39,834 bases of DNA from a virus. The stretch is from positions 1 to 39,834 of the IMG/VR virus record IMGVR_UViG_3300028194_000511. The stretch is one strand, 5' to 3'. The notes beneath the pieces are model-generated. The model saw only the letters and a list, made by a program, of their open reading frames with translations. It was not told the origin of the DNA and did not search any database. Positions 11,301 to 38,012 of this stretch are shown here, piece after piece (the first letter of the stretch is position 1; each line of letters starts with the position of its first letter). Position numbers and translations under genes: made by a program.

Positions 11301-14300
11301 TTGATTACTAAATCATTTGTATCAATGGTAGCACTTAAATTTTGTTGATTAATTACTAATTCTATAGTATTATCTAATGCAGTTGATGAGGATGATGAAG
11401 CAAATGAGAATACAGGTGAATCAGATGTAATTGTTAACATCTTAGCATCATCACCAGCAAGTCCTTGCGCTCCTTGCTTAGATTTAACTAAACTCATTGT
11501 TTTACTTAATGATGTACTTCCACTTGTAGCCGTTATATTAACAGAACCACTATCGCTTGATAATGCGGTTATAGTAACTCTTTTACCACTATCTGTTGCA
11601 GTTACATCCACTCCGTTGGAAGATGAAATTACATAGTTGGATGTTACATTAGTAATTCCTTGAAACACTTCCATATCTGTGAATGCTCCATTGAAAGATA
11701 CAATGTTTCCATTATTAGCGGCTGCGAAGGTGTGAGCTTCGTTGGTTAAGAACGCAGTAACTGCGTCTGTACCATCAGAACCTGCCGTACCACCCTCAAC
11801 CTTAAATACTTTTATTGAATCTGTTAAACTATCTTTTGTTGCTGAGATAGTTACAGGCAACTTATCTTTATCAGAACCCAAACCACCTGCAGAGGTTGCA
11901 GCTGAGAATGATAAACTACCACTTGCAATTCCACTAAAATCAGAATTTACATTTGTATTATTAAAAGCAAATCCAGTAATGTTTGTTCCATCTGCTCCTG
12001 TGATTGTAACATCACTACTACCAATCGTAGCGTTGTTTAAATTTTGTTGATTGAATGAGAATATAACAGATGTTGGTTCTGCGGTGTTATCACTCGCACT
12101 TAGGAATGAGAATACTTGAGAATCTACAGATGCTACAATATTTTTAGCATTAGCTCCACTTAAACCTTGCGGACCTGCTACACCACCAACATTTAATGAC
12201 CAAGCCGTATATTGTCCACCACCAGTAATTGTATCTACGTTTAATGACATTGCACCATTGGCTGAGTTGTATGAGTTCACCGTACCATTAATAAAGTTAG
12301 AACTATCTTTAGAAAGAACTGCAGTTAATCCCGCAGTCCAAGCTAATCCAGTATCTGCTGTAAATGTTAGTGTATCATCTGCTGATAATGTTGTTAAGTT
12401 TATTGTTGTTGTAATCGAAGTATCTGCAAACTTATCACCATCTTGTCCTTGCTTAGCTTTGGTTAAACTCATTATCTTATTGATACTAACACTACCACTA
12501 GCCGCATTGATTGTAACAGAACCACTATCGCTAGTCATTCCTGTTACATCTACGTTTGCATTAGAATCTCCAACCGAATATGTACCACTATCCCCTATAA
12601 GATTTGTTGATACTCCCGTTCCGTTTGTTCTACTAATTGTATAAGCTGAAGTTTTATCGGTAATACCTTCAAATACAGTTACATCAGTATCAGCGCCTGT
12701 AAATGAGATTACTGTACCATTCGGTTGTGCAGCTAATGTATGTGATTCGTTACTAAGAATTACTTGAACTGAATCAGTACCATCTGAACCACCCTCAACT
12801 TTAAATATTTTTACTGTATCGTTTAATCCATCTTTGGTTGCCGCAATGGTTACTGGGAATTTGGCCTTATCACCACCCATACCACCTGCATTCGTATTTC
12901 CTAAAAATGAAATAGAACCACTAACGATACCCGTTCCATTTGCAACATTATTATTATCGAAATCAAAATTAGTAATATTACCACCACCATTTAATGCGAT
13001 TGTAAAATCACTACTTTGTAATGTTAGGTAACCAGCAGAACCACTTAGGTTTTGTTGTTGGAAACTAAATTCAACAGATGTTGGTGTTGCCGTAGTATCC
13101 GATGAATCATCAAATGCCATTACTTGTGAATCTAATGAACCAATTAGTAATTTAGCAGATGTACCATCTCCACCATCAACACCCTGTCGTGCTTTTGTTA
13201 ACGACATTATTTTATTGATACTAACACTACCACTACTAGCATTTACAGTTACACTACCACTATCGTGTGCCATAGCTGATATGGTTACTGTTTTTCCACT
13301 ATCAGCTGCAGTTACACCAATACCATTTGATGAGGATATAACATAATTAGAAGTTGAATTTGTAATTCCTTCGAATACTTCCATATCCGTAGCACCACCA
13401 GTAAATACTGCTATAGCGCCAGTAGCATCAGCTGCGAATGTATGTGATTCGTTTGTAAGGAAAGCGGTTACTGCATCAGCCCCATCTTCTCCTTCATTAC
13501 CACCATCAATTTTAAATATTTTTAAACTATCTTCTAACCCATCTTTAGCTACTTCAATTGTTAAAGGAAGTTTTGTTTTAGTAGAAGATAGAGTACTATT
13601 AAATGTTATACTACCACTAACTTGCCCAGTTCCACTCGTTACATCTGCTACAAATGTTGGGTCTGTTAAAGCGTTTCCACCTGAATCTTTAATTGTTATA
13701 TCACCAGCATCAATTGTACCACTTAGGTTTTGTTGATTAACAATAATTAAAATATCATTATCTTCAGGAGTTGATGAAGATGCCGATGGAAATGCAAATA
13801 TTTGGGAATCTGAAGTAAGAGTTAATAATTTAGCTGCTGCACCAGGTAAACCAGCAGTACCCTGCTTTGATTTAGAAAGTGTCATTACTTTACTTAAAGA
13901 TACACTAGCTGATGTAGCCGTTATAGTAACCGAACCACTATCGTGAGTCATACCTGATATGGTTACTGTTTTTCCACTATCAGCTGCGGTCATACCTGCA
14001 CCATTTGAAGAAGATATAACGTAATTAGATGTTGAATTTGTTACACCTTCGAATACTTCCATATCGGTTGTAGCTCCAGCAAATGATACTACAGTTCCAT
14101 CATTTTGGGATGGTAATGTATGGGATTCATTTGTAAGGAATGCAGTAACTGCATCAACACCAGCAGTACCATCTGAACCACCTTCTACTTTAAATACAGT
14201 TACGGAATCTGTTAGTGAATCATTAGTACAAGAAATAGTTAATGGTAAACTACTCTTAGCCCCATTTAAACCACCACTACTAAATCCACCAGTAAATGAT

Positions 14301-17300
14301 ACACTACCACTTACGATACCACTTTTTTGATTTGTACCACCGCCTACACTATTACTATCAAATGAGAAATTTGTAACTGCATTACTATCAGCCGTTGTGA
14401 TTGTAATATCAGATGATTTAATTTTATCGTTTAAATTCTGTTGTGAGAATGCGAATGTAATACTACCCGGCGTTGCTGAATTATCAGTTGAATCATCAAA
14501 TGCGAATACTTGAGAATCAACACTTGCTATTAATGTTTTTGCATTATCACCATTTACACCAGGCGTTCCATCAGTTCCATCATCACCCTGTCTAGTTATA
14601 CCAACTGACATTATCTTAGATAATGATACCGAACCACTAGCAGCAGTAATAGTAACACTACCACTATGTGGTGTTGTTGTAGATGCTATAGTAAATGTAT
14701 TTGATGAAGAGGTTGCTGTTATATATGATGGTGAACTTTCAGTAAATGTATAAGCTGAAGTTTTATCTGTAATACCCTCAAATACTTTCATTTGAGTATT
14801 AGCACCTGCGTATGATTGAATTGCTCCCGATGAACTTAGTGGGAGTGTATGTGCTTCATTAGTTAAAAATGCAGTAACTGCATCTGTACCATCAGAACCT
14901 GGCTGAACACCAAATAATGTTAATGAATCAGCTGATATTACTGAACCAGCGGATGCTGAATTAAATGCTTTTACTTCATACGATTTTGGTGTACTAGCAG
15001 TTGGTTTCTCTAATGTACTATTTACAGTAAATGTACTTGTTGTACCTCTACTACCTTGAAGAGTTCCATCTTTATAAAATTCATAATATACATTACCTAC
15101 AAAGTTTTGTGGTACTGCGGTTAGTGTTATTGTTTGATTAGATGGAGCTTCACTACCATTAGCATCGAATGTAATAACATACTTATTAGCTGATAATTCT
15201 ACTGTTCTTGCAACTGAACCACTTGATACATTATTAATTGCAGTTTCTACTGATGTACCATCTGAGAAGTTTAAATCACCAACGATTGTTAGTGTAGATG
15301 TTGTTGGATTCCAAGATAATTTATTAGCTAATGAAAATTTAGAACCTGAATCTACATAGAACCCAGTGTTTGAATTATTGTAATCACCTGCTCCAGTAAA
15401 TAATTTACCATCTTGCATTTCGATTCCACCAATAGAACCTGTTGTTGCAATTATACCACCTTGAAGAAATACATTATCAGTTGCTAAACCGAACCCTGGA
15501 TTTGAATTACCAAACACATAAGATGAATTTGCTAAACCACCCAAATCACCTAATCTGGCTTTTAATGCTACATCATATAATCCACTACCCGTTCTTTCAA
15601 CGATATCCATATATGGTGTATCTGTATCATTTGGGTTGGCGTTCATTTTGATATAACCAGTATTTAACTTACCAGTCGAAACAATAACTTGCCCATCCTC
15701 ATACACTTGAGCTGCTGATGATAAATCACCCACAAAGTTACCTTGTGAACCACTTCCGTAGGCTCGAGAAATCATTATCCTACCATGCGTTTCATCTTCA
15801 CCACTATTATCACCATCAATTGATGCTGATTGTAATAATACATATTCTGTTTGAAAACCTGAACTATCTACTTTCTTTATGAGGAGTATTTCACCTTGTG
15901 AAAATCCACTAGCATTCTTAACAGACATTGTTGTATCTGTTGCTGTTATAGAACCTGTAATTGTTGTTGAGTTAGCTACCCATAATTGTCCACCAACTGC
16001 GTTTACCGATTCTTTCTCAAAAGTAGTTGTTCTTAACGTACCTCTAATTCTAACATTTTCAAATTCTGCAGTTCCGTTTCCTTCAGATGATATTTTCCAA
16101 CCCTTTAACCCACTAGCGAAATCTCTTGTCTGTAAGATACCTTCTGGTTTCATTATAAGGTTTCCACCTTCTATAGAGCTTGTTGTAATATCCCAACCAC
16201 CAATCGATGCTGATACGAATCGTGCGAAACCATCTGAATCAATAGATGATGATGAGTTTGCTTTTGTTGAGGCGTTTCCACCTATTTGAGCTGGAGTTCT
16301 TAGATTATCAACTGTTAAATCAGCAAGTATTGTTGCATTTGCTCCAATAATTAAACTACCTGCTCCACTATTAGCAGAAGGATTTAAGTGAAATATTGAT
16401 GAACTAATTTCTATGTTACCATCAGAACCACTTATAAATTGTGAGGATGCATTACCTATAAAAAACTTATCAGTTTTAACATCTAATAAACCACCACCTG
16501 CAGTTGTGAATATAAGGTGTCTTGAATCGTTATCACCAACGAATTCCATACCAACACCATCCAATGTATCTTCACCGAATTTAAGGTTACCAGAACCACT
16601 ATAGATTACGAATCCACCTGGTGCTTTTCCTAATGATGCTGATGTGATACCTCTATATCCAACAGAACGCATAAATCCACTACTAGCTCCACCAATCTCA
16701 ATACCACTTCCTAATGTATTTGATATAAAGATAGAACCACTAATTAAGTTTTCTTCACCACCAATATAAATGTTATCACCATCAAATACAAATGGTTCGG
16801 ATATTGTTTCTGTTCTTGATATACTACCCTCAGCGTTAAGATATAATAATTTTAGTATCTTAGGGTCTTTTAAGTTTTTAGATGGGATTGGTACTTTGAT
16901 ATGAAACGATGAGCTAAATGGAACATCTACTTCGTTTACTAATTCAAAATCACCTGGTAATCCATCGGATTTTTGTAATACTTTTATTTTATTTACAAGA
17001 CCTGTTATAGGTTCTACATTTGAAAAACTTAGATTTGCAAAGTTTCTTTTGTTTTGTGTAGATACATTTGAACCACTTTGAATATATTCAATAGTATAAT
17101 TAGCTTCTTTTATAAATTCGTAAGTATGTATTAAATCTTCTCTATCTTGAAAAGATGATGTAAAGTTTGTTGTTGGTTTTAACGTATTACCATTTAGTAT
17201 TTCTTTAATAGATGAACTAAAAAATGTAGAACTTAATGGATTTTCAATAGTAGCTTTAGGTAACGCTGGTTCTGTGAAGTTATTAAGGAGTATCTCCCCA

Positions 17301-17947
17301 CCCACCATTTCAGAGTTAAACGAAGTACCATCGTTAGTTTGAACTATCGGAGTAGTACCACTAAACAAATACTTAACTTTACCTGTTTGAGTTGTTTTTA
17401 CCAACTCACCATTAGATTGTGGTTGGTTCTCATATTGTTCTACACTTTGTGATACTGCTACAATAGGTAAAATATCATCTTTAAATATAATTTGAGAAGT
17501 ATTATCTCTTTCCCTATCTACAGTAACAGTAGTTTGCCACTTTACATTAATTTTATTTCTATGAATTGATGGGAGTGGGTTTCCATTCAAATCAACATTA
17601 GCAATACCAGCTAATGTAATTATTGCTTCACCATTTGGTGTATTATCATCACCTTTATCGTGATAAATCCAAATAGATATAACCCTACTTTTATCGTTTT
17701 CTAAATAATCTGGTATCTCATAGTATATAGCATTACCATTAGAATCCCTAACATCAACATAAATTTTAGTATCAGGTACCAAATTTGTTGGATGCGCAGT
17801 AATTCTTAAAAGATTTTTACCTTTCTGTAAAACCTGTGGTACATCAGAAACTCTAAAGTACTTTGTTGACTTCGCAGATTCATCAACTATAAAAGTTTGT
17901 ATATCTGTTACATTCTCTCGTACCGAATTTTTATAAACTAAGGACAT
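5396..17947 (-). CDS. Giant tail fibre / host-recognition protein with modular repeats
   Basis: The product is 4183 residues, with very few cysteines and dominated by Ser, Thr, Gly, Asn and Asp. The N-terminus (about 1-210) resembles a virion-attachment region. Residues about 480-900 hold tail-tip-like text (FISGSDGNIEISS, ASIGGWDITTSSIEGG, GGIIATTGSIGG). Residues about 911-3350 form about ten copies of a two-module repeat: module A (VTAFLTNESHTLP ... MEVFEGIT ... HDSGSVTITATSGSVSLSK) and module B (SDSQVFAF ... QQNLSG ... LTDSVKIFKVEGG), joined by collagen-like G-x-DGTDG linkers. Towards the C-terminus lie a second FISGSNGNITISG segment (about 3450) and two jelly-roll, carbohydrate-binding-like segments (about 3487-3660 and 3810-4015). 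No S74 domain is present; it is encoded by the next gene. The start is fixed by TAGGAG 5 bp upstream; an ATG 4 bp earlier is out of frame. Adsorption to host glycans or surface protein is inferred. Confidence 0.9.
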   Translation of the reverse strand: MSLVYKNSVRENVTDIQTFIVDESAKSTKYFRVSDVPQVLQKGKNLLRITAHPTNLVPDTKIYVDVRDSNGNAIYYEIPDYLENDKSRVISIWIYHDKGDDNTPNGEAIITLAGIANVDLNGNPLPSIHRNKINVKWQTTVTVDRERDNTSQIIFKDDILPIVAVSQSVEQYENQPQSNGELVKTTQTGKVKYLFSGTTPIVQTNDGTSFNSEMVGGEILLNNFTEPALPKATIENPLSSTFFSSSIKEILNGNTLKPTTNFTSSFQDREDLIHTYEFIKEANYTIEYIQSGSNVSTQNKRNFANLSFSNVEPITGLVNKIKVLQKSDGLPGDFELVNEVDVPFSSSFHIKVPIPSKNLKDPKILKLLYLNAEGSISRTETISEPFVFDGDNIYIGGEENLISGSIFISNTLGSGIEIGGASSGFMRSVGYRGITSASLGKAPGGFVIYSGSGNLKFGEDTLDGVGMEFVGDNDSRHLIFTTAGGGLLDVKTDKFFIGNASSQFISGSDGNIEISSSIFHLNPSANSGAGSLIIGANATILADLTVDNLRTPAQIGGNASTKANSSSSIDSDGFARFVSASIGGWDITTSSIEGGNLIMKPEGILQTRDFASGLKGWKISSEGNGTAEFENVRIRGTLRTTTFEKESVNAVGGQLWVANSTTITGSITATDTTMSVKNASGFSQGEILLIKKVDSSGFQTEYVLLQSASIDGDNSGEDETHGRIMISRAYGSGSQGNFVGDLSSAAQVYEDGQVIVSTGKLNTGYIKMNANPNDTDTPYMDIVERTGSGLYDVALKARLGDLGGLANSSYVFGNSNPGFGLATDNVFLQGGIIATTGSIGGIEMQDGKLFTGAGDYNNSNTGFYVDSGSKFSLANKLSWNPTTSTLTIVGDLNFSDGTSVETAINNVSSGSVARTVELSANKYVITFDANGSEAPSNQTITLTAVPQNFVGNVYYEFYKDGTLQGSRGTTSTFTVNSTLEKPTASTPKSYEVKAFNSASAGSVISADSLTLFGVQPGSDGTDAVTAFLTNEAHTLPLSSSGAIQSYAGANTQMKVFEGITDKTSAYTFTESSPSYITATSSSNTFTIASTTTPHSGSVTITAASGSVSLSKIMSVGITRQGDDGTDGTPGVNGDNAKTLIASVDSQVFAFDDSTDNSATPGSITFAFSQQNLNDKIKSSDITITTADSNAVTNFSFDSNSVGGGTNQKSGIVSGSVSFTGGFSSGGLNGAKSSLPLTISCTNDSLTDSVTVFKVEGGSDGTAGVDAVTAFLTNESHTLPSQNDGTVVSFAGATTDMEVFEGVTNSTSNYVISSSNGAGMTAADSGKTVTISGMTHDSGSVTITATSASVSLSKVMTLSKSKQGTAGLPGAAAKLLTLTSDSQIFAFPSASSSTPEDNDILIIVNQQNLSGTIDAGDITIKDSGGNALTDPTFVADVTSGTGQVSGSITFNSTLSSTKTKLPLTIEVAKDGLEDSLKIFKIDGGNEGEDGADAVTAFLTNESHTFAADATGAIAVFTGGATDMEVFEGITNSTSNYVISSSNGIGVTAADSGKTVTISAMAHDSGSVTVNASSGSVSINKIMSLTKARQGVDGGDGTSAKLLIGSLDSQVMAFDDSSDTTATPTSVEFSFQQQNLSGSAGYLTLQSSDFTIALNGGGNITNFDFDNNNVANGTGIVSGSISFLGNTNAGGMGGDKAKFPVTIAATKDGLNDTVKIFKVEGGSDGTDSVQVILSNESHTLAAQPNGTVISFTGADTDVTVFEGITDKTSAYTISRTNGTGVSTNLIGDSGTYSVGDSNANVDVTGMTSDSGSVTINAASGSVSINKIMSLTKAKQGQDGDKFADTSITTTINLTTLSADDTLTFTADTGLAWTAGLTAVLSKDSSNFINGTVNSYNSANGAMSLNVDTITGGGQYTAWSLNVGGVAGPQGLSGANAKNIVASVDSQVFSFLSASDNTAEPTSVIFSFNQQNLNNATIGSSDVTITGADGTNITGFAFNNTNVNSDFSGIASGSLSFSAATSAGGLGSDKDKLPVTISATKDSLTDSIKVFKVEGGTAGSDGTDAVTAFLTNEAHTFAAANNGNIVSFNGAFTDMEVFQGITNVTSNYVISSSNGVDVTATDSGKRVTITALSSDSGSVNITATSGSTSLSKTMSLVKSKQGAQGLAGDDAKMLTITSDSPVFSFASSSSSTALDNTIELVINQQNLSATIDTNDLVIKDAGGNTLTNPTLAPSSLTNNTGLVSGSITFGPAGSPGGGGTVNGDKTKLPLEITITQDGLTDSLKIFKVEGGTSGTDGTDAVNAFLTNESHTFPADSAGAVASFAGGSTKIDIFEGVTDATDNYALSGTGSLGVTFTKSTDTFNITAMGHDSGSLTITAVSSSTSLVKTMSLTKARQGSDGSDGTSAKLLIGSLSSPVFTFLSASDSTAEPLSIEFSFQQQNLSGSAGYKTIQSSNIDVRDSANTQLTGFGFDNNNVSNGTGIVSGSITFASATNAGGVGGDKAKLPITITANVSGHGLSDSVTISKIEGGAVGTDGTSAITALLTNDSHTLPVSSSGNVISFGGASTDILVFQGTSDVTNKYLINTGSVSSHITTTTSGDTVTITQADAPFSGSVVVTATSGSTVLSKTMSISQALQGDDGTDGTPGVNAKTITISSDTQTFAFDDSSDTTATPTSVVFSINQQNLSGAIAGTDITITKTGGGTINTPTVSGTVTNGTGTRTFTLPFSSLAKSDLPLSVSVTKDSVTDSTSIIKVEGGANGVSALQYLLTNEAHIVPATSAGVVSSYSNSGTEIYVYEGTTELDYDASGTTAAHWKVGTPTVSPTNKITVGTITEDGNYAVVGNHSSMDNSTDSVTISYPISGKTADGTNFSFTKTQNITKSKEGSDGLPGTSASLISLTGDSQVFAFASASATTPDPTTIELFITQQNLGKTLTASDITIVDALGNNITTIPTFSPTSLSNNSGVISGSLVFSTLNLPKAKYPITITATSESLSDSFKVFALDGGADGTAGADAYTVFLTNESHTFPAAFNGDVDSSNLAAGATEVRVFKGTTQLTNDNSSPYGANTYRAAKTNSGITLSPSVSNSQRKFTPTAVTADSGTGTITITDNTTGTAFTKTYSFSKSKEGAEGAEGSDSKTVALTAATNVVTYNAAGGSPSPSSTIALSANSQNFTDGYFKFTGDGLTNDTSYTNGASANGDTANFTVPSSYFSSPKTIRVGVADGNQTELAFDTVTIVAVQPGSDGDAGADAVTAFLTSEADVIPAAANGTVSSFAGSGTTMAVFEGITDKTSAYTYTLINTTTGLTAALSTNVLSISGLTPDSGSTDIRATSGSVTLEKTYSIGKSKAGATGADNQDFSYLDASLTGIGPIGTPGLLMNSQVFGFHTGISGNNGALTDFTSFLDSGGNFYLGGNASGASGSDSGYLAWNNTDRSLLISGSKAQVNVDKFFLGNTNTQFISGSNGNITISGDVNFEGKNSNGATVFYDDFAQYAAASDVFVNSNSPQVDGSGVGYYNYGSAAQQSLLTSQGEFSGKVAKFGDNSGNDEVWLNSNKLIPFNENSLYEIEVRFKFTHGGGRVFAGITAYKSDGTTKVNVHGSNDFGSQHYFAAGGLYKSATGEGWVIYRGFFKGTASSGNGGQHNSDTDPGTIHSDAINGYITPMFLSHFDNTPGILYLDYIKLTEVGGGGSTKISGDSITTGTIKSNNLTTDTGTSLGLNDGVMKIGGTNAYTSENGILLDGPNAKFAVGIDSGNYMRFNHTAGKLEINTPNFTIDNGDSVVIQGDLSVVQPDGTVVNLGVDPSEELFNVMIPPSTGQDDGAGRPVDFFSAYGTSATDIFTFTDLSDGNGNVLDIYKSGQQNLGVATKAVAVDSNKYKIRLTLKGGTSSSQSTTSGLYLRIYESNSQLGTSDKFVTLSSKANSTNSEPGYVAGGSTHWTDTGFSGASWYRVSGSAGVGQGENGDRVNLSGTYWPTKYTTFETIYTPTNTAAAFSLNILNWSGNGTEHGYIKDIAIIPIRRASVITGDNIKTGKLESTNISPGEGSVLDLNSGSMKMGGTSNPGFEVTKEGFVTATNLTEKFVIVTDTNSGSFFENYVTGSGSTNNGTRLLLDGSGGGNVTMNLTLESAPQYIISDIKFPSNVTSDAISDMELKISTDTLIQFDDGAITSGLLSYTGNLLTQFLIKQQI
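10617..10659 (-). repeat. 43-bp exact direct repeat, copy 1
   Basis: This stretch is identical base for base to 13032-13074, about 2.4 kb away in another module-B copy (encoding part of FSFQQQNLSGSAGY). Flanks diverge soon after on both sides. Identity across synonymous positions points to recent duplication or gene conversion between repeat units. Confidence 0.85.
12175..12445 (-). other. Extra module inserted in the fourth repeat of the giant fibre
   Basis: Between module A and module B of the fourth repeat the protein carries about 90 residues absent from the other units. They start KFADTSITTTINLTTLSADD, continue LTFTADTGLAWTAGLTA, and end QYTAWSLNVGG, followed by a collagen-like GVAGPQGLSG linker. 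The module resembles small beta domains that I recall between collagen-like segments in phage fibres. It is bounded by Gly-rich linkers on both sides, as expected for a shuffled module. Function unknown. Confidence 0.6.
13032..13074 (-). repeat. 43-bp exact direct repeat, copy 2
   Basis: This is the partner of 10617-10659. It encodes the same FSFQQQNLSGSAG segment with identical codons, while adjacent sequence in this unit is closer to a different copy near 9931-9965 (the stretch covering TTATPTSV). The unit is therefore a mosaic. Confidence 0.85.
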
Positions 17948-18000: not shown

Positions 18001-21000
18001 CTATAAATATCTAATTGATGAAAATCCACCTAATTTTGTAATATCTATAATCTGGTCAACCATATCACGCGTTTTATCAATATGAGATATCGTAACTATA
18101 AAATCAAATTGATTCTTCAAGTAATCAAATAATAAATATAAAGAATTAAAGTTATCCGTATCTAATGAACCAAAACCTTCATCGATTGCTATGAAGTTTG
18201 GACGTGGTAAATTTGATACATTTACTAACGCCGTTCTGATTGCTACAGATGATATAAACTTCTCCATACCACTTGTTAATTCTAATGGCCAGAACTCTTC
18301 CGTACCATATGCTATATATGAGTTTATATTCTTACCATCGGTATTTAGGATTATTTGAAAATCTACAATTGGTTGTAATATATTATTTATTTCTACTTCT
18401 AACTTAGGAAGTATATCTGATATTAGTTGATATGGGATTCCATCTCTTCTAACACATTGTAAATAATATTCATAACCTTCATACTTCTGTTCCATATGTT
18501 CTAACTTATCTATGGAATCATTCACAGTCTGAATTACGTTTTTTGAAATTTTAATATCACCACTTACATCTATGATATCATCATTGAGATTAGAAATATC
18601 CGTATCAAAAATATCTAAAGATAATTTGGTTTTATCAATTTTTTGTTGTACCTTTGTATTATAAGTTACCGATGCTTTCTGCTCTAATGATTTACTTATA
18701 TCTGTAGATGTGTATCTAAGTTTAGTTACTAAGTCTGATAATTCTAAATTACAAGATTTATTAGTTAACGATAATTTTTCAATCTCATTAGATAGATTAT
18801 CATAATTAGCTTTTATATCTTTTACTTTTACTAATACACCTCTAACATCGTACTTAAACATCTCAGATTGCATATCAATTATTTCTTCAGATAATCTTTT
18901 TGATTTAGAAGTTAATTGAATTATATCATCAGATAGTGTTTTAGATTGTTTAGCGAATGGTGTATTTTTATTCTGTACACAATGTTCACAATTATCATCA
19001 AATGTTAATTGCCCTATCCCCTCTAAATGTTCTTTCTTATGTTCTATATCAGTATTTAAACTATCTAAAGATGAGGTTATCTCTTCTAATCTATTAACAT
19101 ATGATTGATACTTTAAATGATTTTCTTGCAATAACATTAAATCATATGATTCGTATTCAGTACTAACTGATTTTATTTCGGCTGATAGATTATCTAATTC
19201 AGTTTTATAACCCAAACATTCTGATTCTTTATCTGATAGGTTGGATTTTAGTTTAGTTTTTAATTCTTTTAAAGATTCAGTATCTATGATTGTATCATCT
19301 ACAGGTTTTAGATTTGATATTAACGTATCCTTTTTTTCCCGTAGTGTATATCTTTTATCTTTTAACTTAGATATTTTATCATTATACTTAACTAATACCT
19401 TTTCATTTTTTTGTAAATCTTCTTTTGCTTTTACTAATTTATCAGTAAAGTTTTGATTCTTATAATCTTTTAGTAATGCACTTAGTTCTCTAATCTCATC
19501 ATTTGCTATCTTATATAATTCTTCAAATACATTCATATCTAAGAATTGAGCAAGAAGTTCTTTCTTTTCTCTTTGAGATTTTTCAATGAACCCACCACTA
19601 TTAGATTGATTAGACATTGCTGTAAGAATGAAATCATCATACGAACCAACATACTGTCTGATTATGGAGTTGGTATCTCTACGTTCTTCACCATTTAATG
19701 AATGTTTTACTCCATCTTTAATACAATAAAATTCTACGTCAACTTTTACAGTTCCTCTTTTTGGAGATTTTTTACCTACTCTTTCAATAAAATAATCAAT
19801 TCCATCAATCTCAAAGTTAAACTTACAATCAAATTTTGATTTAGAATAATTTAATACATCTAATGCTTTAGTTGTACGAGAACATCTATCAAATAAACAA
19901 AATGATAACGCATCCCATAAAGATGATTTACCACTAGCGTTTGGAGCAAATATACCATATGCCCCTTTCATTTGTGAAAAATCAATTATATTTTTAGTTC
20001 CGTATGAAAACATATTAGAAAACTCAAATGTTTTTGGTTTCCATATAATATTCTTCATACCTTTAACACCACCTAATTTATTATTTATATCTTGATTGAT
20101 ATTTCTAATAATCTCAAGGGTTTCATCAGCAATCATATACTTATCCGATAAGTATGATTCCATTAGTTGGTTTTGAAATCCAATATCTCTTACGTTTTGT
20201 AAGGTAATATTTGAGTTACCTTTTGAATCTTTTGTATCTGATAATACTTTTTGTATTGTTAACTCTTGTACTTTTCTACCCGTCTTTACCTCAGATATTA
20301 TTTTCTTTAACTGAGATTGTGATGTATCCTTTACTCTAACTCTCATACGAGGTTTGTTAGGAATAATTGGAGTACCAATTACTTTACCATCTTCTACATC
20401 GATAGTTACATATCCATAATCGTTATGAATTGGAACGAACTCTGATTCTTTAGTTTCAATATCCCAAACTAATATTCCATGCTCAGAATATTTAGCTTCG
20501 GCGTGATTCTGCATAATTGTAGAACCACAATACTTAATCGTACCCTCATCGTTTAGTGATTGGTTTGGAACGTGAATATCACCTAATAGAACTAAATCGT
20601 ATCCATCGAATGAATCTACCTTTACATTTTTATTCTCTAATTGAAACCCATATTCTGTTTTTACCTTATCTACAGGCGCATGATATAATGCAATCTTATA
20701 ATCACCATGCACTTCTTCAGATGGTATAATTTCTTTAGAATCCCCAAAAACCGATGAGTGTGAAAAGGAAATTCCGCCCATTTTCCAAACCCCATCATCT
20801 TTCAGATAATGTAAATTAGAATGGTTCAATGCATTTACGATTGGTGATAATGCATCTAATCTATTTGGATTATTTAGATTAGCATCGTGATTACCTGGTA
20901 TCAGAATAGTTGGTAACATATCTGATAAGTTCTTTAGAAATGTTTGTGTCATCTCTATAACTTCAGGTGTCATATCGGTTTTGGCATGAACTATATCACC

Positions 21001-21171
21001 ACAAAGAACGATAACACTATCATCAGTTTTTGTAGTTTTAATATATTCATAAAGGTTTTCGAATACTTCTCTGTACTCTTTGTGCCTTTTTAAGTTTCTA
21101 ATATGAACATCTGCTATGTGGTAAATCTTTTTGATTGTACCATCATACTTAATTCTTTTTGATTTTCTCAT
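18001..21171 (-). CDS. Single-chain Mre11-Rad50 (gp47-gp46) recombination nuclease
   Basis: The 1056-residue chain joins two proteins that are separate in T4. Residues about 14-240 are an Mre11/gp47 metallophosphoesterase: DVH at 21-23, GDIVH at 58-62, GNHD at 93-96, H164 and GDIH at 197-200 supply the metal ligands. Residues about 372-1056 are a Rad50/gp46 SMC-type ATPase: Walker A APNASGKSS at 409-417, long coiled coils at about 550-720 and 740-900, a zinc hook CEHC at 728-731, signature ELTSGMEKF at 964-972, Walker B NFIAIDEGFGSLD at 992-1004 and switch His1030. In T4 this complex resects DNA ends and drives recombination-dependent replication. The start overlaps the primase stop (ATGA), so translation is coupled. 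A methionine at residue 372 (20058-20056) could be a relic or internal start of the Rad50 part. All key motifs appear intact. Confidence 0.93.
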   Translation of the reverse strand: MRKSKRIKYDGTIKKIYHIADVHIRNLKRHKEYREVFENLYEYIKTTKTDDSVIVLCGDIVHAKTDMTPEVIEMTQTFLKNLSDMLPTILIPGNHDANLNNPNRLDALSPIVNALNHSNLHYLKDDGVWKMGGISFSHSSVFGDSKEIIPSEEVHGDYKIALYHAPVDKVKTEYGFQLENKNVKVDSFDGYDLVLLGDIHVPNQSLNDEGTIKYCGSTIMQNHAEAKYSEHGILVWDIETKESEFVPIHNDYGYVTIDVEDGKVIGTPIIPNKPRMRVRVKDTSQSQLKKIISEVKTGRKVQELTIQKVLSDTKDSKGNSNITLQNVRDIGFQNQLMESYLSDKYMIADETLEIIRNINQDINNKLGGVKGMKNIIWKPKTFEFSNMFSYGTKNIIDFSQMKGAYGIFAPNASGKSSLWDALSFCLFDRCSRTTKALDVLNYSKSKFDCKFNFEIDGIDYFIERVGKKSPKRGTVKVDVEFYCIKDGVKHSLNGEERRDTNSIIRQYVGSYDDFILTAMSNQSNSGGFIEKSQREKKELLAQFLDMNVFEELYKIANDEIRELSALLKDYKNQNFTDKLVKAKEDLQKNEKVLVKYNDKISKLKDKRYTLREKKDTLISNLKPVDDTIIDTESLKELKTKLKSNLSDKESECLGYKTELDNLSAEIKSVSTEYESYDLMLLQENHLKYQSYVNRLEEITSSLDSLNTDIEHKKEHLEGIGQLTFDDNCEHCVQNKNTPFAKQSKTLSDDIIQLTSKSKRLSEEIIDMQSEMFKYDVRGVLVKVKDIKANYDNLSNEIEKLSLTNKSCNLELSDLVTKLRYTSTDISKSLEQKASVTYNTKVQQKIDKTKLSLDIFDTDISNLNDDIIDVSGDIKISKNVIQTVNDSIDKLEHMEQKYEGYEYYLQCVRRDGIPYQLISDILPKLEVEINNILQPIVDFQIILNTDGKNINSYIAYGTEEFWPLELTSGMEKFISSVAIRTALVNVSNLPRPNFIAIDEGFGSLDTDNFNSLYLLFDYLKNQFDFIVTISHIDKTRDMVDQIIDITKLGGFSSIRYL

Positions 21172-27662: not shown

Positions 27663-30600
27663 TTAAAAAGGTGAACCATTTTTTATATCAAATTCTTTTC
27701 TTCTAAACATCTCAGCTTCTCTTAGTTGTAATTCTTTTTTGTATCGTAAATCAAATTCATCTGCTCTAGCATCTTCAATCTCAATCATCTTTTCAATTTT
27801 ACGTCTGAATTCTCTAAGTTCTCTTCTGTATTCTTGCAGTCGTTTCCAATAAATATCATCATCTACAATTAAATCTTTAATATCTAATACATCTAACCCA
27901 GTTGCTGTATCTACATCTAAGTTTCCTTCAGCCGCAGTTTGAGATGTTTTTATTAGTACGTTAGGGTCTGCTTTGAATATTTCAATAACAGGTTTCCCAT
28001 CTGGAGTATCAGGTGAATTTGTTGTTAATGAATCAGATTTTGCTTTACATCCTAAAAATCTAAGATTTTCTACTGCTAATGGTAATTCATCAGTTCCTAC
28101 TTGTGCTGGTTCGAATGATGATGAATTTGGAAGATTTAAAGATGCTGATAATTCTGAACTATAAAATAGTTTTTTAATCTGGCCATATTGTGCTTCTCTA
28201 TTATTTACTATTGTAGTTGCGATTGGATTATAATTCCAACTACCATTAGAACCAGTATTCCAATTTAAACCATACCCAACATCTGTCCCTGCTTTATAAA
28301 CAGGTATTACATATCTATATTTTGATGGTGCGTACATATCTCTAACTTGTGGATTCCCAACATCTTCTACATCATCTTTTTGTGAAGTAATAATAAATAG
28401 TTTAGATGTATCTATAGGATTACCATCATAACCCAATTCTTCTGCAAATACACTAGATGATGGCATGGTTGAAATCTGAGTTTCATATTGAACATTATCA
28501 GCATTTAAACTATAAGAGTTTGTAAGTTCGGTTTCTAATATATGGTTTGATGCAGATACAGGTCTATCAATTGATGCTATTGTAACTGAATACATCGGTC
28601 TGGTCTGAGTTACCTTAGTTAATGATTTAGCTTTAGGTCTTTCTAAGATATGTGGTTCAATTAAAATACCTGAGTTGTAATCAACCCTAGCTGGCATTGT
28701 TTGTCTGATTTGTTCAAACACCGACATATCGTATTTAGCAAGTATATCTATCGTATTATTAATTAAGTTTTTAGAACTATATTTTTTAAATACTTGTCTA
28801 CGAATATAATCTAGTTCTTCATTTTGTTCGGTGAATCCACTTCTTTGGTCTGGATTACCTATGTAATCATCAATATCAAAATATCCCGTATGATTTATAA
28901 TATCATCGTTATACATCTTAGTAGCGGCTAAATAAACACCAACTACGTTTGAATCAACTGGTGCTGAATCGTATTGTGATTTTTCCATTTTGTTTTCAGT
29001 ATTAAGAATACCAGTCAATGGGTTTGCTTCAGTTCTAACTTTATTGTTAAGGATATTGTTAGCTCCTGCTGATGGAACTTTTGTATAATACTCTTCAGTA
29101 ACCCCAATCAAATCATCATTTTCAAAATTAAATAATGATGCCGTTAAATGATAACCACTTTCCGAACCTGTTAATTGTTGGTTAGGGTGTTGTGATTTAT
29201 GTGAATCGGGATTCGTAATTGTTTTTAAATTAGAATCAGGTAAGAATCTAAACTTTAAATCAAAGAATGATGAAGTTAATGAATTACCATGATATGATTC
29301 TCTTGATAATGTATGTTCATCAATCACAATATCATTTAGTTGTTCTGCCCAATATCTTATTTCTTGAATAGAACCACTCATAGGTTGTGTATTTCCCCAT
29401 AAGGTTGGTGCTCCAGCTATTGTTGGAAATGAATTACCAAACTCAACAGAATTATTACTCCCAGTCCAAGCTGCATTATATGATGATTCGGTTGAACCAT
29501 TAATTGATATACTTGCTGATTTACTTACTTGAATTCTATCTTTTCTATTTCTTCTATATTGTAATTTGTAAACATTATCTTTTGTTATATCATCTACAGA
29601 ATTTTCTCTTTCTATTAATAGAGTTCCCATATTAGAATCAAATATATTAACATCTGAAATAGATGCTGATTTATACCCACTACTACCACTTAGGTAAAAA
29701 TGTATGTTACCTTTTTTATTATTAACAACATTTGGATATTTTGATTCAAATAGTACTGCGAAATCTTTATCCTTACGAATAACACCAGTGTGTCTGTTTA
29801 GATTTTGTGCTACTTGTAATTCAATAACATCGATTGGGTTAGGCCCACCTTCGTTTATTGTGATATTACCACCCATCCCACTATGATTTGTACAATAGTA
29901 TTTTAAAGAAGGGGTTGATGCAGATACTACAATTTGAACAGTTGCGTTAGCTTGTCCTTGCGTTCCACTTACGGTAACACCAGTTGTATAACTTGAATTA
30001 TCAGATGCTTTTTGGAATCTAAATGGATGTGAACCATTTGATGAATCACTTACATCAAATTTATATGTGTTTCCTGCATCTAATACTAAAGTTGGTTGTT
30101 TTACTTCATCAATTTCAAATACACCATCAACTACTTTAACTACCTTAGTTATAGTTGAACCATCACCAGGAGTATTATTATTAATTTCGTAAGTTACAGG
30201 ATTTATATCTGCTACTTTATCCCAAGGAACTGTAATGTAATTATTGTTATCCATTCTTAAATGGTAAACAAATCTATCATGCTCCCAATAAGGTCTTACA
30301 TTATTCTCAATTACAGGCCCACCATATTCTCTGATTGATAGGAATGTTTGGGGAATACCATATGTAGCTATTAATGCTTTAACTGCTCTTGCTGAACCTT
30401 TTGTTTTTAGAAGGTATGGGATATTGTTTACAATTCTTCTCCATACTTCATTATTAATTTGTTCGTGTGATTTAGATGGAAGTGAACCACTATTGGGTAC
30501 ATTACCAAATTTATCAGTTCCTAATCCAAACTCCCAAAGGTTAGATGTATCTTTACCATGTGTTAGTTTCCATCCCATAGATTTTGCTACATCATAAAGA

Positions 30601-32519: not shown

Positions 32520-33587
32520 TTAACTTTCACTCACTGTTGCTGCATTCTCTTGGGCCTCATCACTAACTACTCCCTGTCCACCACCATTATAGGTATTAGT
32601 TCCACCATTTGTATTGGCTGGGTAGAATGGCGCTGGGTCATCTGCTAATAAACAATTAACCTCAAATACACATTTATCACCCATAATGTAAACACCATCA
32701 TTAACAGAACCAAAGTTAGATGTTATTTGATATAAATCATTTACTTCTAAATCATTATTTGGAATTGTTAATTCTAAAACATGCATAGGATAAAATGGTT
32801 GGTCTGCAGCTATTACCGTACTACCCTCTGTTACTACACGCTTTCTATTTTCTTCATTAGTTCTTCCCGCTCTCTTTCTCATAATAGCTGCGTATTGTCC
32901 TACATCATATCCATTACTATGTCCGATTCTAAAACTAACTACTGCTCTAATGAAAAGGTCTCTTCCCGAATCCTTTAATTCTTGAGTAATTCTATATCCG
33001 TATTGTTCTAATTCTGGTCCGAATGCTTTATTATCCCATGAAAGTTCTCTATGCCCTTTAAATGTAATAAAACCATCAGTTGCACTTCTAACACCATCGT
33101 TATGATAACTTACACCACCAAAGTGAGTGTTACCAAAATCTCTTTGGCTATTTGAAATTTCAGATGTGTTTATATATCTGTAAGAAGGTGCATCTGCTGT
33201 TAGTTCATATCTACCACTAAATGTATCTTTAGGTTCTTCTTCTTCTGAACCTCTTACTGACCTTAAAGATTGGTTTTGTACTTTATAAATCTTTTCCTCA
33301 TTCAATCTATTTTGTTGAATTATTTGACTTTCAAATTCAACAGGTGTTGTAAGTAACTCATTTGATAGCTGTGGAATATTACGTTTATATTGATTAGCAT
33401 CAAATCTAATAACCTCACCCGGTATTCTTTTAAATCCATATTCATCTGGCTGAGTACCTTCTTCGATTGTATAAGACACAATTTGGTTTGAACTATTTCG
33501 TCTTATGTTTCGATAGTTTTCTGTTTCATTTTGAATTGTTATATTCAAAAGATTTGAGCTATTGCTTGGTGAATTATCTACTGCCAT
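32520..33587 (-). CDS. Virion structural protein, unknown family
   Basis: The product is 355 residues, begins MAVDNSPSNSSNLLNITIQN, and has no signal peptide or membrane span. The middle holds aromatic beta-type sequence (YRYINTSEISNSQRDFGNTH, then FITFKGHRELSWDN, then LFIRAVVSFRIGHSNGYDVG). The C-terminus is Asn/Gly/Pro-rich. Its ATG overlaps the stop of the preceding gene by one base (TAATG) and its stop lies 3 bp before the next ATG, so it belongs to a translationally coupled baseplate block. I do not recognise the family. A baseplate wedge or fibre-attachment role is inferred from neighbours only. Confidence 0.72.
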   Translation of the reverse strand: MAVDNSPSNSSNLLNITIQNETENYRNIRRNSSNQIVSYTIEEGTQPDEYGFKRIPGEVIRFDANQYKRNIPQLSNELLTTPVEFESQIIQQNRLNEEKIYKVQNQSLRSVRGSEEEEPKDTFSGRYELTADAPSYRYINTSEISNSQRDFGNTHFGGVSYHNDGVRSATDGFITFKGHRELSWDNKAFGPELEQYGYRITQELKDSGRDLFIRAVVSFRIGHSNGYDVGQYAAIMRKRAGRTNEENRKRVVTEGSTVIAADQPFYPMHVLELTIPNNDLEVNDLYQITSNFGSVNDGVYIMGDKCVFEVNCLLADDPAPFYPANTNGGTNTYNGGGQGVVSDEAQENAATVSES

Positions 33588-35611
33588 TATCTTACCACTT
33601 TAAATATAAACCCATCGAAATATTGTTGGTTGCCACTTCGGTCAACTCTAAATTCGAATTGATAAAATCTTTCGGGTTGTAATGTATTAAATCTAAAATC
33701 AAAGAAGTTTCCAGTTGAATCACAACTAACCTTTGTATATGTTGTATCAAATGGAATCAATACTAAATTTGTTTCTACATCTCTAACCTGGTAATAAGTA
33801 GTTGCGGGTAGATATTTAATTTGGTTGTATGGTGCTGAGTTTGTAAAACTTCTTTGAGGATATGTTTCTCTACCAACAACTCTTAACTTAGCTCTTGATA
33901 ATTCTTTATATTCTGTTTTTAGATTCTTCATATATAATGTAATATCATCTGCAGTTAGTTCTGTAAGTGAACCTGTTGCGAATGATGCATCATCCCACCT
34001 AGCTTCTAATGTAGGAACATATATTGTATGAGTATCGTTTGAGAAGAACTTTGATGAACCATATTTAGTAGAACCAGTTTCTTCTAAAACAGGTCTTTTA
34101 ATAAGGAATCCATCGTTTGGTCTTGAACCATCTAACATATCATGTACATACGCAGTAACTTCTACATTCAAATCAGATGTTGTTTTTGTAAATGTTTGAG
34201 AATAATTAGTACCTTTAAATGATGAGGTGTACCAAGTTGCACCACCTGAATTCTTACTGAAACCTGCTTCACTTATCTCCGGCGAATCTAATGAACCTGA
34301 ATATGTAATTTTAAAATCATCTATAGAACCACTTTTTGCGGCGCTCGATGCATTATAGTATGTATATGCAAATATATAATCACCAGTTACTACTGGTGTA
34401 AATGCTATTGATTGTGTTGCTTTAGCAGTATATGAGGATGTTAGATTTGTTATACCTGTTCTTAATGGTAATCCATTATTATCATATATTAAGAAATCTA
34501 TTTTATCGAAATCGCCAGGTGTAATTGATGCTGATATTTGGTAGTTTAATCCTGCTTGTAAATTCAAAGAATATTGTGCATCTGCTCCCCCATCATCAGC
34601 GTATAAATTTAATAACGATTGAGATGCAAACATTCTAACACTATTAGATAAACTATCGTTTACTCTATTTCTTAAATTAAAGTTACCTTCATTCTGAGTA
34701 AATGTGTCCCACACAACTAAATTACCTGCTTTTTGATAAATGTACACTTCATCAAATGTACCTGTTGTTGAAGAACCATCACCACTTCCATCAAAGAAAG
34801 TAAATCGTAATTCATGCTCTCCAGTTACTGTAGCTGCTAAATCAAATGATTGAGTAGATGATGCTGTTATGGCACCAACCATACCTTCGTAATCACCTTG
34901 GTTCTTTAAAACCCCATTAGGGTCTTTAATTCTAAATGTAACATCATCAAATGAGTTAGGGTCTATTTGGAATTGAACTCCATATGTAAATCCAGTCTGT
35001 AGATATGCTGGGAACACTAACGTAGTTCCTGCAAAGTTTGATGCTGATATAACTAATTGTTCGTTGACAATAGATGTAGATGGCGCATTACCATTAAAAT
35101 CGTTAATAGATTCTGTTAGGTGGGCCGAGCCACTTCCGTTTGCAAATGATTCGTATAATACAACACCCCTCTTTGGAGTTGTTTCAACATCATTACCATT
35201 TAATATTGATGTAGAATCCACACTCCACAAATTATTTGAATTTCTGCGTTCCCAACTACAACCATTTGTGATATTCGGAGAATCGTTATACTGACCCATA
35301 CCTTCAGACCAACTCTCTGAAACGGGGTAAACTTCTAATGTGTATTCAGTCTGTACTTCATTAGCTTCGATGGTTGTTAAGTTCATTTGATATTTAGAAG
35401 AGGTTGGTATATCACCTGCTACAACTGATTGTGATATATCAGTTAAATCAAATTGTGTAAGTACTCTACTATTACCAACGAATACTGTGTTTGATTCTTC
35501 ATCGAAGAACTTGGTAATTTCTAACACTTCATCTAAACCAGTGTTTTGAGCTTTACGAGTGTTTAATTCGTAAATTGTAGTATCTTTTTGTCCGTATATT
35601 CTATAAATCAT
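33587..35611 (-). CDS. Baseplate/tail structural protein with DNRLRE-like start
   Basis: The product is 674 residues. The start MIYRIYGQKDTTIYELNTRK resembles DNRLRE-type beta domains (surface or carbohydrate-associated), continuing with TQFDLTDI and LEVYPVSESWSEGMGQYND. Two internal segments look duplicated: LESINDF-type jelly-roll text around residues 155-280 (ISASNFAGTTLVFPAYLQTG, then GEHELRFTFFDGSGDGS) and around 300-430 (LNLQAGLNYQISASITPGDF, then TGDYIFAYTYYNASS). Both follow a G-x-x-Y-x-x-x-x-x-I-x-P pattern and end in a small-molecule-like SGSIDD/TGTFDE strand. The C-terminus ends RFYQFEFRVDRSGN. It lies directly after the gp6-like gene and probably contributes to the baseplate periphery or fibre attachment; this is inference. 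Confidence 0.72.
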   Translation of the reverse strand: MIYRIYGQKDTTIYELNTRKAQNTGLDEVLEITKFFDEESNTVFVGNSRVLTQFDLTDISQSVVAGDIPTSSKYQMNLTTIEANEVQTEYTLEVYPVSESWSEGMGQYNDSPNITNGCSWERRNSNNLWSVDSTSILNGNDVETTPKRGVVLYESFANGSGSAHLTESINDFNGNAPSTSIVNEQLVISASNFAGTTLVFPAYLQTGFTYGVQFQIDPNSFDDVTFRIKDPNGVLKNQGDYEGMVGAITASSTQSFDLAATVTGEHELRFTFFDGSGDGSSTTGTFDEVYIYQKAGNLVVWDTFTQNEGNFNLRNRVNDSLSNSVRMFASQSLLNLYADDGGADAQYSLNLQAGLNYQISASITPGDFDKIDFLIYDNNGLPLRTGITNLTSSYTAKATQSIAFTPVVTGDYIFAYTYYNASSAAKSGSIDDFKITYSGSLDSPEISEAGFSKNSGGATWYTSSFKGTNYSQTFTKTTSDLNVEVTAYVHDMLDGSRPNDGFLIKRPVLEETGSTKYGSSKFFSNDTHTIYVPTLEARWDDASFATGSLTELTADDITLYMKNLKTEYKELSRAKLRVVGRETYPQRSFTNSAPYNQIKYLPATTYYQVRDVETNLVLIPFDTTYTKVSCDSTGNFFDFRFNTLQPERFYQFEFRVDRSGNQQYFDGFIFKVVR

Positions 35612-35624
35612 ACTATATCCTCGT

Positions 35625-37565
35625 TTAGAATTGTTGTGTTACAACCTGTCCTCTAATATCTTGATTTGGAAACTTAACTTCAAATATAGATGGGTCTTTA
35701 GGTGGGTATATAATACCACCCTTAGTTGCATTTAATATACTATATTTGTTTGATGAATAGTTTCCGTTAAATTTGTTTACTATCTGTAATCCACCCTTGC
35801 CATCTCTATCAGGTCTTACTACAGTTTGTACTCCATCTACCTTATCAATCTCAACATAAATTTTTGATAAATTAATTGGTTCATTAATTCTCCAATTGTC
35901 AACATCAAAATAATCTTTTAATCTATTAATAACTCTTAATAAAACTTCGTTAGAGTTGAATTCTGGCATAACTACAATTTCAAAATTACACCCGATATTT
36001 ACAATATGTGCATTTTTTATGTTTACTGCATCTGTTAGTATTCTATGATACGAAATATAATTTTTTAGATTGTATTTGGTAGCTGCATTTAGATGTGTTA
36101 AATTCTTTTGATTATCGTATCCACAAGTATATAAATTTAATGCTAGTGGGTTTGGAATCTCAGTATTAATATATTGTCCATCTTGTTTAGATTGTTCTAA
36201 TTGATAATCTTGAACTAAGTATGCTTTAGCAACAGAACCGAATTGTGGTGGAAGTGCGTAACATCTCATTACATAATCTTCTCTCGTTACAGTTCTATTT
36301 TGTGCTGCAAAGAATGCCATAGCATTCTGTCTAATTTCTTCTTGTGATTCTGTAGTCTTACCACCCACAGCTGCGTTTGGATTTGAACAAGCTATAGATT
36401 GTCTACAAAACTTAACTAAATTAGTATTTAGATTTATTTCATTTTTAAAAGTAGTTGTACTTGATATAACACTAACTAAATCATTTGCCGGAACATTATC
36501 TTCGATACCATTACCAACTAAGTAAGTAACATTTAGTGTTGTATTTTGTGGTGCTACTCCATATGTTTTTGTATATAAAAAGTTTGATGGGTCTAATGAT
36601 GAATCTAAATTTTGATGTTCTGTATAAAGTGCTGAACCTACATTATCAGGGTTTGGTATTATTTCTTCATCTGCATTCGATGATATACCAGCTCCAAATC
36701 CAATAACTAAAACCCCATCATCTTCAAATGATGTTGTGTATCTTTTAGGAACTCTATTAAGTTCTAATAGGTATGGTGTATCACCACTATATTGGTGTAG
36801 GTATGTTGAATTATCTTCGTTATTATCTATCTGTTCAAATACAGTGTCTTGTGCTAAGTAAGGAACTCTAGTCCAAGTATCACCATCTGAATCTGTAATG
36901 TTTTTTATTCTTACTAGATTTTCTGATTCTATCTTTATTTTATCATAAATTTTTGGAGCGGCGAAATCAAATGTTTTTGTTTCTTCTCTACCACTCGTTG
37001 CTTTAACTTGCTTTTTTAACAAATAATAAACTGGTAGGTTTGTACTCTCATCTATTTGATATACTGATACTTCTGTTGGGTCAAATGATGATGAGAATGA
37101 AAAATCAATTGAATTTATAGTAGTAAATTCTACATTTGAAAAATCAGTAGAACCTATAATCATTCCTTCTGATAAGGTTGTGGCATAAGCAAAATCAGGT
37201 TTTACATCATCACCAGTCCCAGTTGCTGGTACTAATTGGAACACATCCATAGTTACCGATGCTGGAATAATATTTTTTGGTTTGTATCCTAATGAGTTTA
37301 CAATATTAAATAGGTTTATATTTTCTTCTGCCGTACTTAATAAAGATTCTCTTAATTGTGTATCTGTATAGAATGATAACACATCACCCACATACGATGC
37401 CATTTCCATAAACATCATACCAGGAGATGATTCGTTAAAATCATTGAAGGTATTTGGGAAGTAATTTTTAGAAAACTCAACTAAGTTTTTTCTAAATTCT
37501 CCAAAATCTCTACCGATTAACGATACATCCTTTTGTACTAAATCTGATTTCTTTTTATTTGCCAT
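35625..37565 (-). CDS. 6: gp6-like baseplate wedge protein (baseplate J family)
   Basis: The 646-residue protein is close in size to T4 gp6 (660 residues). The N-terminus (ESSPGMMFMEMASYVGDVL, YTDTQLRESLLSTA, NIVNSLGYKP) is the conserved start of gp6/J-type wedge proteins. Around residues 400-455 the signature ESQEEIRQNAMAFFAAQNR and VTREDYVMRCYALPPQFG is typical of the family. gp6 dimers form the inner ring of the contractile-tail baseplate that opens during sheath contraction. It follows the gp25-like gene by 9 bp, the same order as in many T4-like phages. Translation starts in the shared context TAAGATATGGC. Confidence 0.92.
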   Translation of the reverse strand: MANKKKSDLVQKDVSLIGRDFGEFRKNLVEFSKNYFPNTFNDFNESSPGMMFMEMASYVGDVLSFYTDTQLRESLLSTAEENINLFNIVNSLGYKPKNIIPASVTMDVFQLVPATGTGDDVKPDFAYATTLSEGMIIGSTDFSNVEFTTINSIDFSFSSSFDPTEVSVYQIDESTNLPVYYLLKKQVKATSGREETKTFDFAAPKIYDKIKIESENLVRIKNITDSDGDTWTRVPYLAQDTVFEQIDNNEDNSTYLHQYSGDTPYLLELNRVPKRYTTSFEDDGVLVIGFGAGISSNADEEIIPNPDNVGSALYTEHQNLDSSLDPSNFLYTKTYGVAPQNTTLNVTYLVGNGIEDNVPANDLVSVISSTTTFKNEINLNTNLVKFCRQSIACSNPNAAVGGKTTESQEEIRQNAMAFFAAQNRTVTREDYVMRCYALPPQFGSVAKAYLVQDYQLEQSKQDGQYINTEIPNPLALNLYTCGYDNQKNLTHLNAATKYNLKNYISYHRILTDAVNIKNAHIVNIGCNFEIVVMPEFNSNEVLLRVINRLKDYFDVDNWRINEPINLSKIYVEIDKVDGVQTVVRPDRDGKGGLQIVNKFNGNYSSNKYSILNATKGGIIYPPKDPSIFEVKFPNQDIRGQVVTQQF

Positions 37566-37574
37566 ATCTTAAAC

Positions 37575-38012
37575 CTACTCTATTGTACTTCCAGCTGAAT
37601 CATAAAACACTATTATCTGTTGGTTTGCACCTTGCTCCGTAACTCTAAACCTAAGTTGAATTTTTACAAAATTTCTATCAGGTTCTGTTTGAACATCTAT
37701 CTTGTCAATAACTATATAGGGTAACCAAAATTTAATATCTTCTGAGAGAGTATCTGAAATCTTCTCATCTAAGTTAATATCAATGTTTTCAAAGAGTTGA
37801 GAATACACATCCGAACCAAACAATGGTTGGAAGGGTCTTTCACCTTTTCTAGTCAATAATAGATTTTTTAAATTAGATACTGCCTGCTCTTCTGTTGTAT
37901 AACTTTGTGTGAATAATCCATTAGGTTTCCCAAATGGTAATTTTATACCAACAGCAACATCCTTTTTAAAATCTATAGGATTGTAGAAATATTCTTTTCT
38001 CTCCTTAGCCAT
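37575..38012 (-). CDS. 25: gp25-like baseplate wedge protein
   Basis: The 145-residue protein belongs to the gpW/gp25 family by size and by the segments NLLLTRKGERPFQPLFGSD, YSQLFENIDINLDEKISD and IDKIDVQTEPDRNFVKIQLR. The family member in T4 (132 residues) bridges baseplate wedge and sheath and is needed for sheath polymerisation. GGAAGG lies 6 bp before the ATG. The gene starts 3 bp after the upstream stop and is followed by the gp6-like gene, so this pair anchors the T4-like assignment of the window. Confidence 0.93.
   Translation of the reverse strand: MAKERKEYFYNPIDFKKDVAVGIKLPFGKPNGLFTQSYTTEEQAVSNLKNLLLTRKGERPFQPLFGSDVYSQLFENIDINLDEKISDTLSEDIKFWLPYIVIDKIDVQTEPDRNFVKIQLRFRVTEQGANQQIIVFYDSAGSTIE

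Follow-up and report, generated by a model that had tools for sequence, protein, structure and literature searches.

A predicted cupredoxin module with an amicyanin-type ligand set, inserted into a tail/baseplate-region protein of a viral genome fragment

The protein P0001, encoded in a 39,834-nucleotide marine phage fragment from IMG/VR (the window, by which the whole analysed stretch is meant), contains an inserted module that is probably a mobile, outward-facing accessory cupredoxin with an amicyanin-type copper site. The sequence of the module, its predicted fold, the conservation and joint loss of its ligands, its insertion and its distribution in virion proteins were shown computationally; copper occupancy, oxidation state, outward placement and role are inferred. 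The coordinates are collected in Table 1.

Table 1. Position of P0001, the inserted module and its predicted copper ligands in the window
Feature	Position	Strand	Basis
P0001, tail/baseplate-region protein, 1617 aa	27663..32516	(-)	Open frame
Inserted cupredoxin module, residues 779-891 (113 residues), between TYEI and PNPIDVIELQ	29844..30182	(-)	Missing in homologues with up to 97% identity in the adjoining core; fold model
His830, predicted N-terminal type 1 copper ligand	30027..30029	(-)	Sequence; invariant in alignment A1
Cys875, predicted thiolate ligand	29892..29894	(-)	Sequence; invariant in A1; sole Cys in 65/67 domains
His878, predicted second His ligand	29883..29885	(-)	Sequence; invariant in A1
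Met881, predicted axial ligand	29874..29876	(-)	Sequence; at least 90% conserved in A1

The assignment of P0001 to a contractile-tail region, and with it the virion location of the protein, is inferred from synteny, since baseplate wedge-type genes (35625-37565 and 37575-38012; PHROG 219/6/261/43) lie upstream and genes of tail-fibre type, as well as very long tail genes, lie downstream. Two open reading frames of unknown family, coding for 355 and 674 residues (32520-33587 and 33587-35611), separate P0001 from the wedge-type genes and gave no match in the PHROG search. Outside the cupredoxin domain, P0001 itself was matched by no library model. The region around the module resembles lectin/LamG-like domains by eye only, and this identity is not claimed, Pfam giving no match.

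The AlphaFold2 model of the isolated domain, built on an alignment of 67 sequences, had nine strands with a pLDDT of 94.6 and a pTM of 0.87, and residues 779-891 are predicted from it to belong to the cupredoxin superfamily by their Greek-key beta-sandwich fold. All the listed top matches of a Foldseek comparison with the PDB were cupredoxins, rusticyanin (1rcy) being the first (E 1.4e-4, probability 1.0), and lower matches included multicopper oxidases, copper nitrite reductase, laccases and amicyanin. The TM-scores to rusticyanin and amicyanin were modest (0.54-0.59, rmsd about 6 A); cyanophage tail fibre and structural proteins matched the model at 0.8-0.9. The domain modelled within its host-protein context was poor (pLDDT 59.5) and was left out of the evidence.

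Sequence comparison with known families gave little. Nothing scored above the gathering cut-off in Pfam or NCBIfam, and only sub-threshold profile matches were seen, to Copper-bind (E 0.019, in 3 of 67 members) and to rusticyanin (E 0.025). No significant match was found in a sequence search of the PDB, the alignment with pseudoazurin (E 0.57) covering the Cys-His stretch. With hhalign the CxxHxxM of the family fell in register with the amicyanin loop, weakly (p 0.014, 18 columns aligned). Since no sequence match exceeded the gathering score, the module is not filed under PF00127 and is regarded as a new sequence branch of the cupredoxins.

The initial annotation had placed a cupredoxin with a complete type 1 copper ligand set at 29800-30300, naming H830 in SHPFRF and C875, H878 and M881 in YYCTNHSGMGG, with the spacing of the amicyanin loop. 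This was largely borne out: the range contains the module, the two motifs occupy residues 829-834 and 873-883 with the four residues exactly as named, the cupredoxin assignment is supported by the predicted fold and the Foldseek matches, and the Cys-x2-His-x2-Met spacing is that of 1aac. The retention of all four ligands held for the window copy and for most copies elsewhere. The ligands follow the order of the fold, His, Cys, His, Met, and the C-terminal loop that bears the last three is short. A type 1 site of amicyanin type is inferred from this arrangement, with copper binding and ligand geometry unmeasured. The methionine is kept even where the loop is one residue longer, as in CVAHGITM (L126) and CSTHGNSM (L022).

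A chance occurrence of the motif was ruled out by the near-absence of other matches in the window and by the completeness of most copies collected without regard to the ligands (see below). In six frames the strict C-x2-H-x2-M pattern was met only twice elsewhere in the window, once on the plus strand at 30854, out of frame and overlapping the P0001 gene, and once in a stretch containing a stop. Two other roles for the cysteine were excluded by the presence of one Cys per domain, as in the window copy and in most members (Table 1): a disulfide formed by C875, and a CuA centre, which needs two Cys ligands.

The module was found to be a clean insertion in P0001. Homologues of P0001 were retrieved with a 189-residue query ending before the domain, and the domain was present in only eight of these loci (L148, L150, L151, L159, L160, L162, L163 and L165), which represent four distinct versions, window included. 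In L149, which is 97% identical over the query and lacks the domain, TYEI is joined to PNPLDVIELQ by a two-residue linker; in the window the module occupies this junction, and the flanking residues and codons are the same as in the domain-less homologues. Because close homologues lack it at the same junction, the domain is dispensable and exchangeable, and it is likely to be a mobile accessory domain. The initial annotation is corrected here in that the domain was added to P0001 as an accessory and does not belong to the core of the protein.

The conservation of the ligands was assessed with a scan that was blind to them, in which 2.9 million IMG/VR viral contigs were searched with a pattern set on the G-x-TYKFD strand only. 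In the sample of 108 distinct uncut copies that it gave, a lower bound on their number, 95 had the His together with C-x2-H-x2/3-M, 12 lacked two or more ligands and a single one lacked the Met alone. When viral and cellular copies at less than 80% identity were taken together, all four ligands were present in 117 of 124. Loss of two or more ligands was observed in six copies of this set, compared with 1.0 expected under independence and a maximum of five in 20,000 shuffles. Tree structure is not taken into account by the shuffling, and the pattern used to collect the cellular copies itself included ligands, so the count from viruses is the less biased of the two. In the window clade carrying the domain, dN/dS values of 0.23-0.49 indicated purifying selection, with the ligands fixed. 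Loss of ligands in close homologues would have refuted the initial annotation; the check was run, and all copies in P0001 homologues kept the His-Cys-His-Met set. As the ligands are kept or lost together and each domain has a single Cys, a real metal site is the likely reading, in preference to a disulfide or a plain scaffold, although no metal-binding data support it.

Tandem pairs of one complete and one degenerate copy were found in L308, L309, L284 and L289. The first two, from S-CAM22 and P-SSM7 gp7, are gp7-type baseplate proteins in which the complete copy is followed by a ligandless one. In L040, L089, L105, L137 and L143 a viral relative of the domain shares the TYKFDL strand but has none of the four ligands; a conserved TGN-x-(I/V)-(K/R)-T stretch comes after it.

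The window domain matched 54 annotated phage records, and one relative used as query matched 125. The named records belong to marine Synechococcus, Prochlorococcus, Pelagibacter and Methylophilales phages or to uncultured marine phages; a plasmid search gave no match to the domain. Among the domain-bearing proteins, one has a T7 tail-fibre N-terminus and another a T4 gp9/10 N-terminus, and the PHROG matches fall in the tail fibre, gp9-like connector and baseplate wedge families. The cyanophage gp7 carries the domain together with a YHYH domain (as in L308) and lies beside gp9, the C-terminus of which bears a further complete copy. From these PHROG families and the T7 and T4 N-terminal domains the module is assigned to virion proteins of related phages, no mass-spectrometric evidence on virions having been used. 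Its presence in T7-type podovirus fibres also corrects the framing of the domain as one of contractile tails.

A single-sequence search of GTDB genomes found nothing; an alignment search found the same domain in marine bacterial genomes. Some of the cellular copies lie in short proteins whose N-termini resemble those of lipoproteins (SAR86, other gammaproteobacteria and one archaeal MAG), others in very large Flavobacteriaceae proteins, and part of the contigs concerned are phage-like. In L248, L255, L306 and L297 the gene of the bacterial cupredoxin lipoprotein adjoins a CIA30 gene, and genes for a regulator of ZntR type and for an SO_0444 Cu/Zn efflux transporter are close by. This gammaproteobacterial neighbourhood hints at a possible link to metal handling, in one clade only.

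One of the closest known copper proteins is amicyanin of Paracoccus (1aac), in which the ligands are His53, Cys92, His95 and Met98 (PMC12723479). Its sequence, checked against 1aac, shares with the module the cupredoxin fold and the Cys-x2-His-x2-Met loop (YHCTPHPFMRG compared with YYCTNHSGMGG), and the distance from His to Cys is similar, 39 residues compared with 45. Amicyanin, however, is a periplasmic electron carrier and no virion domain, and there is no significant full-length sequence similarity. Rusticyanin, although the best match among solved structures, is a larger protein engaged in electron transfer in iron oxidation. Its Cys-His-Met loop is longer than that of the module.

The Ig-like accessory domains of tailed phages are mobile, dispensable beta-sandwich modules in virion proteins. 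The module is like them in its mobile insertion and unlike them in that they hold no metal and belong to another fold family. An established precedent for metal in phage tail fibres is iron, which has been discussed for marine phages; in T4 gp37 it is held at HxH sites by paired His along the trimeric fibre (PMC11705849). Both gp37 and the module would be cases of metal in tail fibres, the metal of the module being inferred, but gp37 has no single-domain type 1 copper site. No paper joining a cupredoxin with a phage tail fibre was found in the open-access literature, nor anything relevant on related topics, subscription papers being outside the scope. What is new here is the cupredoxin sequence branch, with the virion as a new location, the nearest precedent being iron in tail fibres.

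In the proposed explanation, marine phages would repeatedly insert or append the module into tail fibre and baseplate proteins, in the manner of Ig-like domains, and it would probably be displayed on the tail exterior. It would most likely fold inside the host and acquire copper once the virion meets the periplasm or seawater. The bound copper would stabilise or rigidify the small beta-sandwich and might be redox-active at the host surface. A function in adhesion, stability or redox is thus an inference. The copper reading is considered likely, with the caveats that there is no direct evidence of copper, that the ligand geometry is unmeasured and that the surface placement is unproven. Against it stand the ligandless viral copies, which imply that the fold can serve without metal, the modest TM-scores and the lack of a Pfam or NCBIfam match above the cut-off.

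The main rival is a metal-free, rigid display or spacer scaffold in which the ligands are a relic of a bacterial ancestor. In its favour, the ligandless copies are stable enough to persist, and metal is seen in none of the family models or structures. Against it, few alignment columns are conserved as well as the four ligands, even between very divergent copies; the ligands are lost together, as would be expected for a site that has been switched off, and they are fixed in the window clade under purifying selection. The scaffold is considered unlikely. The initial annotation had left undecided whether the domain binds copper or is only a scaffold; a metal site is now favoured, copper binding itself being inferred.

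That the site holds another metal in the virion, such as Zn, or Fe as at the gp37 sites, could draw on the iron precedent and on the ZntR-type regulator and Cu/Zn efflux transporter near one group of cellular relatives, but a His2-Cys-Met set in a cupredoxin is how type 1 copper is bound, Met is unusual as a Zn or Fe ligand and the domain has no HxH motif, which leaves this rival with very little likelihood. An adhesin for a receptor or glycan, with the conserved loop touching the host and metal irrelevant, is also very improbable: the proteins that carry the domain are tail fibres and other virion proteins of modular build, and modular insertion is typical of adhesins, yet an adhesive face is expected to diversify between hosts, and no part of the domain varies less than the loop among phages that infect cyanobacteria, SAR11 and methylophiles.

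Returning to the copper-binding accessory cupredoxin, a bolder reading, which is no more than possible, is that the virions of marine cyanophages, pelagiphages and their relatives are loaded with copper, each particle bearing many type 1 sites on its fibres and baseplate, and that this metal acts in infection. It might form an element that responds to redox state or copper where the phage meets the host surface, or be delivered or scavenged; the idea would parallel, for copper, the iron-tail hypothesis. Should copper indeed occupy the site, an abundant set of marine phages would possess metalloproteins in the virion that belong to a class known otherwise from chains of electron transfer. Copper would then join the question of iron in phage tails and give a testable handle on the chemistry of the host surface during infection, and a domain missing from Pfam and now scattered under "hypothetical" and "tail fiber" annotations would receive a name.

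Some other genes of the window, all on the minus strand, deserve mention. The open reading frame at 18001-21171 (1056 aa) has an N-terminal metallophosphoesterase domain (residues 15-202) joined to an SbcC/SMC-like ATPase (PHROG 77) and looks like an SbcD-SbcC fusion (T4 gp47-gp46). The frame at 5396-17947 (4183 aa) had no hit in a Pfam search, and many of its stretches match families of long tail proteins, nine of them PHROG 33923; PHROG 38396 is matched as well. The frame at 1924-4209 (761 aa) has a cytidylyltransferase-like N-terminal domain and adjoins a tail-spike/Peptidase_S74 gene.
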